NCBI RefSeq assembly: GCF_000179915.2
Contig: NC_014963.1
Span: 1,054,001 to 1,118,000 of the forward strand
DNA: 64,000 bases
Source: Terriglobus saanensis SP1PR4
GTDB lineage: Bacteria; Acidobacteriota; Terriglobia; Terriglobales; Acidobacteriaceae
Reading direction: 5' to 3'
The translations under genes and the position numbers were made by a program. This document shows positions 1,837-5,442 of the stretch, piece after piece; positions within the stretch are counted from its first letter, which is position 1, and each line of letters opens with the position of its first letter. The notes under the pieces were generated by a model. That model worked only from the letters and a program-made list of their open reading frames with translations, ran no database searches and had not been told where the DNA came from.

Positions 1837-4800
1837 ATGTCAAAAGAAATTTTTATCTCCTCAACACCGCATGAGACGCGGCTCGCCATCGTCGAAAACG
1901 ATGCCCTTTCTGAGATCTACTACGAGCGCGAGAACGAGTACACCCTCGCTGGCTCCATCTATAACGGTAAAGTTACACGCGTTCTTCCCGGAATGCAGTC
2001 CTCTTTCGTAGACATCGGCCTCGAGCGCGATGCCTTCCTTTATGTCACTGATTTCATGGAAGAAGCTGGAGACTCCGCCGACTTCGACACCGATAGTGCG
2101 AATGGTAGCGGAAGCAAGGGCGAACGCCGTCCGGCACGCGCTCTCGAAGCCCGTCCCGAAACAACCGTTGAAGGTAATCCTGAAACACGTTCCGAAGGTC
2201 GTAACGAGGGTCGAAATGAAGGCCGCGGAGAGGGTCGCCGTGGTGGACGCCGTCGTCGCCCCAATGATCGTCCGGATTTCAACGCCCCCGCGCAGAGCAC
2301 GGATGAACCGCAGGACTTTGTAGCAGAAGAGGTCCCCGCCACTCCGCCCGTAGCCGATGGAACCGACGCGGAAGCCGCCGAAGGCAGCCGCCGCTGGCGC
2401 GGTCGCCGTGGACGTCGTCGCGGCCGTGGATCGCGCGAAGGCGCACCGGAGACTACTCCCGGAGTGGTTGCCGAAACGGACGCAGAGCCCCTTCTTTATG
2501 GTCAGGCTGAAGAAGCAAATCTGGATCTGAACGCAGAGGAGAGTTCGGAAGAGACCTACACCGAAGCTCCTCCCGAGGTGCAGGCCGCACCGGAGTACAC
2601 CATAGAGCGTCCCCGCACGGAGCGTCCCGAAGGCCGTGGCGGGCGTGATCGTGGTCGTGGACGGGATGGCCGCAATGGCCGTGGTGGACGCGATCAGCGT
2701 GGCGGACGCGAACGTGAGCCGCGCGAAGAGCGCAGCAGTTTTGCCGCACCTGTTTACGGACAGGAAGAAGATGCACCAGCAGGCGAACCGATCATTCTTC
2801 CCGGCGAGTCCATTTCAAAGTACCGCGTCGGTGGCGATCCTAACCCCGCGCCCGTAGTCGCTCCGCCTACCGACGTTCTTTCCTCGGGTTCTTCCTTTGA
2901 AGTCAAAGGATGGGACGGTGGTCTTGTACTTCCCGGCGAAACGATTCGCCCACGGACACCCTCCGCAGGCGGCGAATCCCGTCAGGAATCACCACGTTCC
3001 TCAGAGCCTCGCCGCAGTGAGACCTCGCAGCCGAAGTCGGAAGCTCGTCCTGAAGGCCGAACCGAAAGTCGCCGCGATGGTCGTGGTGGTCGTAACGAGG
3101 GCCGCCGCGATGGACGCGGTGGTAATCGGAACGACAACCGTGGAAACGGACGCCGCGAGGATCGCCCACGCAATCCTCGTCCGGACCAGCCAGCAGTCTC
3201 CGCTACCGAGTTCATTCCAGTGCTTCTCTCGGAGGTCCGCGAGGAAGCCAGCCTCCGCCCGGCGACTTCGCAGAACTATGAGCAGCGCGTACAGCCGGTT
3301 GAGACTTTGCCGGAGCACATTCCCTTTGTTCCGACACCGGTCACGACCTTTCAGGCTCCGGTCATCGAAGAGCAGAAAGCCGCTCCGGTCCACGAGCCCG
3401 TCGATACGGTTGCGGTCAGCCCGGTTCCAGAACAGAAGCCAGCCGAACCGGTGGAGTTTGAACCCCGCGAAGGCGATGCGGCCAACCGCATCGACGCTCC
3501 CCGCTCCAGCTTCCGCCGCTGGCGCGAGCGCCGCGCCGCCGAAAAGGCTGCACGGGAAGCCGCCAAGCTCGCCGCTCTGGAAGCCCTGAACAAGCCCGAG
3601 CCGCCCGCACACGAGTTCACCACCATGCAGCCCACGGGTGAGCTTCTCTCGCGCAACGACCCCGCTCACGAAGCTGCGATCGATGCGTTTTCGTCTCCCG
3701 CAACCCCCATCGCCCACGAAGCAGCTGTGCAGTCGGTTCCTTTGGCTGGGGCTGTAACGACTCCCGTACCCGCTGTCCATACCCACTCCTTCGGCCAGGG
3801 CATGGTCGAAGAAGAAGAGGAGTTCGAGGAAGACGATCTTCAGATCGAATCCCTCCATGCTCACGCCGAAGAAGATAACGAAGAGATGGAAGAAGAGACG
3901 CTCGAAGGTGGACCGGAACTCGGTACCCTGCTTCGGGAAGTCTCGATCGAAGGCCGTACCCGTGCTGCCAATGAAGAGGCCGACGATCTGGAAGATACAG
4001 ACGAGCCCTTCTCCGAAGAAGACGGCGAATCTTCCGAGGACTCCGACGCAACCGCTCCTGCAGCCGCCAATGGCGAAGGCAGCCCACGCCGTGAGCGGTC
4101 GGACCGTGGAGATCGTGGCCGCCGTGACTCAGGTCGCCGTGACCGCAACGATCGTGGTGGAGATCGCAGCGGAGCACGCCGTACCGGTGGCAGTGGTGGA
4201 GGCGGCCGTGGTGGACGTCCTCGTGTCCAGGCATCGGACCTTCCCGCGATCTCTGACCTGCTCAAGCCCGGTCAGGAGATCCTCGTTCAGATCGCCAAGG
4301 AGCCGATCGCCAAGAAGGGTGCGCGTATTACCTCGCACATCGCCCTTCCCGGACGCTTCCTTGTCTTCATGCCGACGGTGAATCACACCGGCGTCTCGCG
4401 GAAGATCTCTTCGGACGAAGAGCGCCGCCGCCTCAAGACGATTCTTCTCTCCGAGAAGGGCGACGCAACGGGCGGCTTCATCGTCCGCACCGCCGCAGAC
4501 GGAGCCAGCGAAGAAGAGCTTCGCAGCGATCTTCGCTTCCTCATCAACCTCTGGTCGGACATCAAATCCCGCTCAGAGTCTTCCAAGTCTCCGGCGCTCA
4601 TCTACCACGATCTCAACCTCGTGGAGCGCATCCTGCGCGACCAGGTCGGCGACAACTTCTCCGCCATCTGGGTCGACACGGAAGCCGAGTATGAACGCGT
4701 CCTGCGCTTCCTGCAGCGCTTCCAGCCTTCGCTGATCCGCCGCGTCAAGCTCTACACCAAGGAAACGCCGCTCTTTGAACAGTTCGGCGTAACGGCGGAG

Positions 4801-5442
4801 ATCGACAAGGCGCTCAAGAGTAAGGTCTGGCTCAAGTCCGGCGGCTCCATCGTCATCAACCAGACGGAAGCCCTCGTGGCCATCGACGTCAACACCGGCA
4901 AGTACGTCGGCAAGACGACGCGGCTCGAAGACACCATCGTGAAGACCAACCTCGATGCCATCCCGGAGATCGTCCGCCAGATTCGACTGCGCGATCTCGG
5001 TGGCATCATCGTCATCGATTTCATCGACATGGACGACCGCAAGAACCGCAACAAGGTCATGCAGGCGCTCGACGATGAACTCAAGACGGATCGCGCACCC
5101 TCCAAGGTGTTGCAGTTCAATGACTTCGGTCTCGTGATCATTACGCGCAAACGGGTTCGCCAGTCTCTGGAGCGCACGCTTTCGACGCAATGCACGGTCT
5201 GCACCGGTACAGGCATGGTTAAGTCACCCATCACCGTGGCGAACGAGATCTTTATCGAGATGCGGAAGATGTATCGCCATATGGATAAGGGCGACATGAT
5301 GCTGCGGGTGCATCCCGAGGTCGTCAAAACGCTGAAGGCTTCCGGCTCACGCTGGCTCCTCGATATGGAAGAGCTCACCAAGAAAACCATCCTGGTCAAG
5401 AGCGATCCCAGCCTCAGCCCGGAGCAGTTCGACATCCACTAG
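1837..5442 (+). CDS. rng: Ribonuclease E/G with S1 domain split by a long Arg/Gly/Glu-rich insert
   Basis: Endoribonuclease of the RNase E/G family, 1201 residues, far longer than RNase G (~490). Residues 1-76 give the N-terminal strands and the first half of the S1 domain (AGSIYNGKVTRVLPGMQSSF, FVDIGLERDAFLYV). S1 resumes at about 800 (LLKPGQEILVQIAKEP). Between them lie ~720 low-complexity residues with many GRRDGRGG/RGG-like blocks and acidic stretches. The catalytic part follows: magnesium-binding Asp1017 (AIDVNTG) and Asp1061 (IVIDFIDMDDR), and the zinc-link CTVC (Cys1119, Cys1122). No degradosome-type tail follows; the protein ends ~80 residues after the zinc link. The insert is open and in frame throughout, so it is not a frameshift artefact. 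Predicted cytoplasmic RNA processing and decay. rng versus rne naming is arbitrary. Confidence 0.93.
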   Translation: MSKEIFISSTPHETRLAIVENDALSEIYYERENEYTLAGSIYNGKVTRVLPGMQSSFVDIGLERDAFLYVTDFMEEAGDSADFDTDSANGSGSKGERRPARALEARPETTVEGNPETRSEGRNEGRNEGRGEGRRGGRRRRPNDRPDFNAPAQSTDEPQDFVAEEVPATPPVADGTDAEAAEGSRRWRGRRGRRRGRGSREGAPETTPGVVAETDAEPLLYGQAEEANLDLNAEESSEETYTEAPPEVQAAPEYTIERPRTERPEGRGGRDRGRGRDGRNGRGGRDQRGGREREPREERSSFAAPVYGQEEDAPAGEPIILPGESISKYRVGGDPNPAPVVAPPTDVLSSGSSFEVKGWDGGLVLPGETIRPRTPSAGGESRQESPRSSEPRRSETSQPKSEARPEGRTESRRDGRGGRNEGRRDGRGGNRNDNRGNGRREDRPRNPRPDQPAVSATEFIPVLLSEVREEASLRPATSQNYEQRVQPVETLPEHIPFVPTPVTTFQAPVIEEQKAAPVHEPVDTVAVSPVPEQKPAEPVEFEPREGDAANRIDAPRSSFRRWRERRAAEKAAREAAKLAALEALNKPEPPAHEFTTMQPTGELLSRNDPAHEAAIDAFSSPATPIAHEAAVQSVPLAGAVTTPVPAVHTHSFGQGMVEEEEEFEEDDLQIESLHAHAEEDNEEMEEETLEGGPELGTLLREVSIEGRTRAANEEADDLEDTDEPFSEEDGESSEDSDATAPAAANGEGSPRRERSDRGDRGRRDSGRRDRNDRGGDRSGARRTGGSGGGGRGGRPRVQASDLPAISDLLKPGQEILVQIAKEPIAKKGARITSHIALPGRFLVFMPTVNHTGVSRKISSDEERRRLKTILLSEKGDATGGFIVRTAADGASEEELRSDLRFLINLWSDIKSRSESSKSPALIYHDLNLVERILRDQVGDNFSAIWVDTEAEYERVLRFLQRFQPSLIRRVKLYTKETPLFEQFGVTAEIDKALKSKVWLKSGGSIVINQTEALVAIDVNTGKYVGKTTRLEDTIVKTNLDAIPEIVRQIRLRDLGGIIVIDFIDMDDRKNRNKVMQALDDELKTDRAPSKVLQFNDFGLVIITRKRVRQSLERTLSTQCTVCTGTGMVKSPITVANEIFIEMRKMYRHMDKGDMMLRVHPEVVKTLKASGSRWLLDMEELTKKTILVKSDPSLSPEQFDIH

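Follow-up and report, generated by a model that had tools for sequence, protein, structure and literature searches.

The RNase E/G gene of Terriglobus saanensis SP1PR4 encodes an enzyme whose RNA-binding S1 domain is interrupted, between its strands 3 and 4, by a charged insert of roughly 700 residues. The gene lies in a stretch of 64,000 nucleotides (NC_014963.1, positions 1,054,001 to 1,118,000; hereafter the window), for which an earlier note, made from the DNA letters, had proposed such an interruption. Sequence comparisons indicate that the insert is a real and conserved extreme case of an insert type already known, apparently undescribed in the open-licence literature, and that it carries a docking-type motif of about 12 residues. 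New here are acidobacterial inserts of up to 786 excess residues, in which clade-specific short motifs stand in fast-diverging sequence. Our preferred reading, for which we have moderate confidence, is that of an RNase G-type protein with a degradosome-like scaffold between strands 3 and 4 of S1.

Position and Authenticity of the Insert

Compared with E. coli RNase E (2vrt) in a phmmer search of the PDB, the window protein matches in two parts, with query residues 4-76 corresponding to 3-76 and residues 799-1133 to 84-418, so that 722 residues separate S1 strands 3 and 4 where E. coli has 7. A hidden Markov model (HMM) built from 17 short homologs without the insert divides the protein in the same manner (model positions 11-110 on residues 1-98, and 111-512 on residues 797-1200) and gives an excess of 698 residues over the insert-less state. 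Because position 512 of the 515 in this model is reached at residue 1200 of 1201, the protein has no C-terminal extension, and the C-terminal scaffold of E. coli-type (type I) RNase E is absent. Alignment of an insert-less homolog with 4OXP, the Caulobacter S1 structure, places the break in the same loop. The S1 strand 3-4 loop of the window protein thus holds a charged insert that is disordered, as judged by low confidence in the structure prediction and by composition alone.

The earlier note was right that an insert of about 720 residues lies within the S1 fold, which it had resuming near residue 800; its span, 2065-4240, equals residues 77-801. The split match also disposes of a position N- or C-terminal to the S1 fold, which the note had named as one way in which it could be wrong. 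The other way, a sequencing or assembly error that joined two genes, has a negligible probability: the gene is a single open frame of 1201 residues and the sole PF10150 match in a single-contig genome of 5.1 Mb, and when insert position was compared across acidobacterial RNase E/G proteins, 86 other loci had both S1 halves in one frame with an excess above 90 residues. The insert is therefore not an artefact.

The enzyme itself is readily recognized. It passes the cut-offs of PF10150 (RNase_E_G, Pfam; 339.3 bits against 25.5) and TIGR00757 (NCBIfam; 474.7 bits against 325.95), and its best equivalog-level match is the RNase G model NF008689, whose cut-off it misses (480.5 bits versus 594) with a score that is depressed because the insert breaks the match into two stretches. 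The two catalytic aspartates and the CxxC zinc-link of the RNase E/G family are present. As the note had stated, Asp1017, Asp1061 and CTVC are intact: among 91 aligned sequences both aspartates are invariant, and C1119 and C1122 belong to columns at least 90% conserved. The catalytic role of D1017 and D1061 is one that we assume from the E. coli enzyme. The residues that form the S1 uracil pocket in E. coli (PMC6538622) are likewise retained, with F57 and F67 aligning with the pocket phenylalanines and K827-G828 (KGAR) corresponding to the KGAA loop.

Conserved Motifs in a Fast-Diverging Segment

The search for short linear motifs that the note had proposed was productive. LPGES was first flagged among six-residue words common to 64 inserts of more than 400 residues, and 68 LPGE-bearing inserts give the consensus PI(V/I)LPGES(L/I)SKYR for the first box; the motif in general is PI(I/V)LPGE(S/T)(L/I)SKYR. 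Its P, G, E and Y are identical in 68/68 inserts, in rows preselected for LPGE. A second box frequently reads WDGGxxLPGE(S/T)(L/I)SRHR, and at least two LPGE copies occur in 41 of the 68 inserts; a single copy is found in each of the seven loci whose titles name Bryobacterales, Bryobacteraceae or Bryobacter. Averaged over 60 LPGE-bearing relatives, identity to the window protein reaches 0.83 in residues 1-74 and 0.77 in the core but 0.19 in the insert, as against 0.77 for box 1, equal to the core, and 0.80 for an arginine-rich box (Arg box) nearer the start of the insert. Both the 68-row conservation table and the 60-row identity table consist of LPGE rows only.

A strict form of the motif, picked post hoc, has 98 matches in the 68 inserts versus 0.0 expected in shuffled sequences, and composition is therefore no explanation for LPGE. 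Such shuffle comparisons, here and for the FER motif described below, are post hoc because each pattern was first counted in the very sequences that had revealed it. As a fresh check, a strict DNA pattern was sought in 26 genomes of the same family, 22 of them previously unused. It occurred in 23 of the 26, with 33 matches (the reversed control had 1), and every positive genome has at least one match in the RNase E/G frame. Among 30 stored loci obtained with this pattern, 28 carry the motif in that frame; the exceptions are L168, where it lies in a 24-residue frame, and L158, which has no LPGE match. In the remaining three genomes, respectively, both boxes have F and L for Y, the gene is ended by a contig end, and there is no RNase E/G match. 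The LPGE box is thus found in 24 of 24 readable same-family genomes.

This conservation bears on the possibility that low-complexity sequence expanded neutrally, and with no specific function, in a loop that tolerates it. Its length is certainly variable (105-786 excess residues in 87 inserts), and most of it aligns poorly, as the 0.19 identity attests. However, box 1 is conserved as strongly as the catalytic core, and LPGE is present in all 64 readable rows of its clade as well as in the 24 readable same-family genomes, and we consider a functionless expansion very improbable. The conserved short motifs instead support a putative docking-platform role for the insert.

In the genome of T. saanensis, a looser LPGE pattern occurs at four places (control 1), and only two of these are in long frames, one in RNase E/G and one in a protein that we take from its translation to be SLBB-type; the other two lie in frames of 14 and 19 residues. 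LPGE as a docking motif shared by other proteins of this genome was accordingly rejected.

Distribution and Phylogeny

PF10150 is present in 172 of the 198 acidobacterial genomes searched. We surveyed 151 loci (one from the T. saanensis genome, 30 from this search, 20 from each of two further searches and 80 named ones), which yielded 152 homologous open reading frames. The counts refer to loci rather than to independent species, since duplicates and apparently same-species genomes are included (L029, L030 and L076 have identical cores, L071 and L130 are identical, and L001 is the window gene itself). A split S1 match occurs in 88 rows including the window, and the excess is above 90 residues in 87. 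A quick tree (LG+G4) was computed from 146 cores, with Shimodaira-Hasegawa-like approximate likelihood ratio test (SH-aLRT) values as support; 7 of the 153 rows (the window and the 152 frames) were left out, their core match covering fewer than 330 model positions (two pieces of L139, and L124, L125, L131, L138 and L141).

All rows with large inserts fall into one group of 98 (SH-aLRT 90), outside which lies a lone row with an excess of 38. A single origin of the S1 insert in Acidobacteriota is thereby suggested by the sequences; long branches among the rows without an insert, flagged in the tree computation, make the outer branching order unsure. Within the 98 is a starred LPGE group of 79 (SH-aLRT 99), in which the motif is present in 64/64 rows with a readable insert. 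Fourteen of the 15 remaining rows are stretches truncated before S1; in the fifteenth, L106, the frame is broken and LPGES lies in the other frame. A second starred group, of 9 rows (SH-aLRT 98), includes 7 with repeated FER(V/I)xDDE, and a third, of 10 rows (SH-aLRT 98, starred), has inserts with neither motif. The pattern FER(V/I)xD(D/E), chosen after the inserts had been read, has 17 matches in 19 LPGE-free inserts versus 0.025 by shuffling. It is seen in the sister-clade inserts of L017, L044-L049 and L052, with at least two copies in 7 inserts. The pattern FxRVxD was dropped from genome-wide use as too permissive, since each of 7 genomes gave 6-18 matches to it, against 0-4 for the controls.

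A second group of RNase E/G paralogs, of 12 rows (L008, L010, L012, L020, L022, L026, L059 and L061-L065), lacks the S1 insert and has a C-terminal extension; the phylum therefore holds two RNase E/G layouts. In L106, L139 and L141, contigs of metagenome-assembled genomes (MAGs), the RNase E/G frame is broken or the match short or gapped, and LPGES is present in all three. L139 still has both S1 halves in one frame, with more than 90 excess residues between them, its frame break coming later in the core. These defects are likely to be sequence errors. Two further MAG contigs, L140 and L134, are titled Rhodanobacteraceae and Acidimicrobiia, and their RNase E/G proteins group inside Acidobacteriota in the tree; they are perhaps misbinned.

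Charge Pattern of the Insert

The note had described the insert as an RGG/acidic low-complexity segment, a description that its charge pattern bears out. Lysine and arginine make up 14.7% of it and aspartate and glutamate 20.4%, and its alternating RG-rich and acidic blocks are segregated 2.3-fold over 100 shuffles (z 6.9); residues 659-698 alone contain 19 acidic residues and no lysine or arginine. Over 80 inserts, segregation averages 2.7-fold over shuffles, with a mean z of 8.0 and a lowest value of 1.7.

A polyampholyte of this kind might work mainly by condensation, gathering decay enzymes through its RG-rich sequence, with the LPGE boxes as minor recruiters. There is precedent for gathering of this sort in alpha-proteobacteria, whose RNase E forms bacterial ribonucleoprotein bodies (BR-bodies) that collect RNA decay enzymes (PMC12691583). 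Consistent with it are the blocky charge of the 80 inserts, the RG-rich blocks, and the acidic and arginine-rich tail of the polynucleotide phosphorylase (PNPase) of the same lineage. Nevertheless, charge blocks are commonplace in disordered proteins, and it is the LPGE and Arg boxes that are most conserved, the acidic blocks less so (0.37). Condensation as the main function is therefore improbable in our judgement.

Structure Predictions

The note had called for an AlphaFold model of residues 1-1201. The model obtained has a well-folded core; the S1 fold is not visible in it, because residues 35-106, which include the S1 first half, have a predicted local distance difference test score (pLDDT) below 50. 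The S1 halves are resolved in a second model, of the relative L115 (excess 301), in blocks with a mean pLDDT of 86-96 on both sides of the insert: strands occupy residues 51-60, 65-69 and 76-79, then 429-436 and 445-447, and the insert, at about 97-419, is mostly of low confidence. Foldseek matches this model to E. coli RNase E over 810 columns (E 2.6e-38) with a root-mean-square deviation of 16, a value that makes the domain arrangement of L115 untrustworthy. The first prediction used an input alignment of the window protein and 90 of the 112 references prepared, the second one of 76 rows. In both models the LPGE box is among the few stretches of the insert with a pLDDT above 50, at about 60. 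A predicted helix of the window protein, residues 696-704, falls within the EEETLEG..LGTLLREVSI box.

The chief rival to a scaffold in the S1 loop is that the insert acts in cis, mainly to gate the enzyme: a portion of it would fold over the RNA channel, and the motif would dock on the catalytic domain of the same enzyme or on a neighbouring protomer. In Caulobacter, a helix of the S1 insert juts into the site where RNA binds (PMC4245959), and the window insert exits S1 directly after the F67 strand and contains an acidic run with the predicted helix 696-704. Moreover, hardly any protein of the genome other than RNase E/G carries the motif pattern, which suits a target in cis. On the other hand, some 700 residues and at least two LPGE copies in 41/68 inserts surpass what a gate requires, the Arg/RG blocks suggest RNA binding, and the pLDDT of the motif is merely moderate in both models. 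A gate as the principal function is thus possible, and we regard it as doubtful.

A Scaffold Inside the Catalytic Fold?

What would a scaffold at this position do? A long and probably disordered segment would have grown inside the S1 strand 3-4 loop and taken over the job that the C-terminal tail does in E. coli. The LPGE(S/T)(L/I)SKYR boxes may serve to dock a protein of the RNA decay machinery; RNA itself may bind to the Arg/RG boxes, and the alternation of acidic with basic blocks could permit multivalent self-association. Tethered beside the S1 uracil pocket, such a scaffold would keep RNA and partner at the mouth of the cleavage channel. The comparisons above establish the components that sequence can give, namely position, an insert throughout the clade, blocky charge and conserved motifs.

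Several observations weigh against it. The motif could dock on RNase E itself. A single LPGE copy is all that 27 of the 68 inserts contain, and in the window protein copy 2 is degenerate. Beyond copy 1 and the Arg box, conservation among the 60 relatives is weak (0.44 for box 2, 0.34-0.40 for the others). Ten insert-bearing tree rows outside the LPGE clade, as well as two in the FER group, have neither motif. Residues 312-341 have no meaningful match in the PDB (best E 1.3, the level of chance), the first half of S1 is of low confidence in the window model, and no paper that treats LPGES together with RNase E was found in the open-licence literature.

Known enzymes offer partial parallels. Inserts of about 50-150 residues in the S1 loop of alpha-proteobacterial and plant enzymes have been published (PMC4245959), and the catalytic fragment of Caulobacter RNase E that includes one binds the helicase RhlB (structure 4OXP; PMC4245959). 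That insert lies in the same S1 loop as the one studied here and is, like it, rich in charged residues and predicted to be disordered (PMC4245959). The window insert differs in far exceeding the published length range with its 698 excess residues; in Caulobacter, a C-terminal scaffold is also present. The excerpts of PMC4245959 on the Caulobacter enzyme mention no LPGE motif. The chloroplast RNase E of Arabidopsis also has an S1-loop insert, the deletion of which lowers activity (cited in PMC4245959); plant inserts are much shorter, and the likeness is one of description only. The size contrast with bacteria outside Acidobacteriota is based on the literature alone.

In E. coli and Pseudomonas, the RNase E scaffold is long and disordered, with short linear motifs and arginine-rich RNA-binding segments (PMC11964227), but it lies C-terminal to the catalytic domain, whereas the window protein has its low-complexity region in S1 and no C-terminal tail. 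Because the PNPase- and RhlB-binding motifs of C-terminal scaffolds vary between lineages (PMC11964227), a lineage-private motif is to be expected. The note had drawn the contrast with the E. coli tail, and this part of its interpretation stands together with the S1-loop position; it had overlooked both the published S1-loop inserts and the LPGE motif. No paper on this insert or on the LPGE motif was found in the open-licence literature, as judged by titles and abstract openings.

If the loop does act as a scaffold, the catalytic fold itself can house a degradosome hub, adjoining the RNA-binding pocket, and the search for partners becomes concrete, with a short peptide as bait. A survey from 2011 listed the RNase E/G of Fibrobacteres/Acidobacteria as 511 residues long with no predicted degradosome potential (PMC3071783). 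For the soil-dwelling Terriglobia, this entry is contradicted by the sequences analysed here.

A Parallel in PNPase

The PNPase tails of Terriglobales often contain (T)I(T/L)(L/I)EGG(D/G)(D/E)F, followed by an EPNFNR(A/V)(D/E)GAP-like sequence and an Arg/Gly-rich end. Among the first six tails, PNFNR is present in five and the EGG part in three, and the PNPase of T. saanensis itself has the EGG part only. An EPNFNR-type DNA pattern matched 12 of the 26 same-family genomes, once each and always in PNPase, with zero matches for the reversed control. Three genomes of the FER clade (L209, L217 and L218) have PNPase tails without PNFNR, as does L211, which is of the same family as L209. The tail motif fits a lineage-specific decay complex, as far as sequence comparison goes.

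We tentatively extend the scaffold in the S1 loop to a broader possibility, which we hold to be appreciably less probable, that Acidobacteriota have a degradosome of a different build. Its S1-loop scaffold would have been re-equipped with lineage-specific docking motifs, LPGE(S/T)(L/I)SKYR in Terriglobia and repeated FER(V/I)xDDE in the sister clade, and RNase E/G and the EPNFNR(A/V)(D/E)GAP tail of Terriglobales PNPase would plug into a common hub where the cleavage channel opens.

The PNPase genes of the relatives L203-L207 and L235-L246 have an EPNFNR(A/V/I)(D/E)-type tail. One same-family genome, G219, is 99% complete and has no PF10150 match, yet it encodes a PNPase with the EPNFNR motif (L238). 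A resemblance was also noticed between TLEGGPEL of the RNase E insert (window positions 3898-3921) and TLEGGDDF of a PNPase tail (L199). A link between them was not sustained, since the pattern has three matches in the genome, including both genes, but the reversed control also has three. The TLEGGPEL box is not general, being found by pattern in 17/68 inserts, and its EGG counterpart is missing from three of the first six Terriglobales PNPase tails.

Feature Coordinates and Gene Context

Table 1. Parts of the RNase E/G gene, in positions of the window
Feature	Positions	Strand	Remarks
RNase E/G gene, 1201 aa	1837..5442	+	open frame, PF10150
N-terminal subdomain and S1 first half (strands 1-3; F57, F67), residues 1-74	1837..2058	+	
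Low-complexity insert in S1 strand 3-4 loop, residues 77-801	2065..4239	+	mostly pLDDT <50
Arg box GSRRWRGRRGRRRGRG, residues 183-198	2383..2430	+	0.80 identity, 60 relatives
RG-rich block, residues 259-298	2611..2730	+	
Motif copy 1, PIILPGESISKYRV, residues 318-331	2788..2829	+	0.77 identity, 60 relatives (residues 319-330); pLDDT >50 amid <50
Motif copy 2, WDGGLVLPGETIRP, residues 359-372	2911..2952	+	SKY part degenerate
Predicted charged helix FRRWRERRAAEKAAREAAKLAALEAL, residues 559-584	3511..3588	+	pLDDT ~71-82; not a conserved box
Acidic run and moderately conserved EEETLEGGPELGTLLREVSI box, residues 659-706	3811..3954	+	predicted helix 696-704
RG/RGG-rich block at insert end, residues 762-798	4120..4230	+	
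S1 second half including K827-G828 (KGAR), residues 805-836	4249..4344	+	
D1017, catalytic	4885..4887	+	invariant, 91 aligned sequences
D1061, catalytic	5017..5019	+	invariant, 91 aligned sequences
Zinc-link CTVC, residues 1119-1122	5191..5202	+	

The genes that precede RNase E/G are presumably those of penicillin-binding protein 2 (PBP2), RodA and a SIMPL-type protein, as read from their translations. RNase G (rng) resembles the window protein in being its best equivalog match, in having no C-terminal extension and in lying downstream of the genes for PBP2 and RodA, whereas a long S1 insert is missing from the RNase G model.
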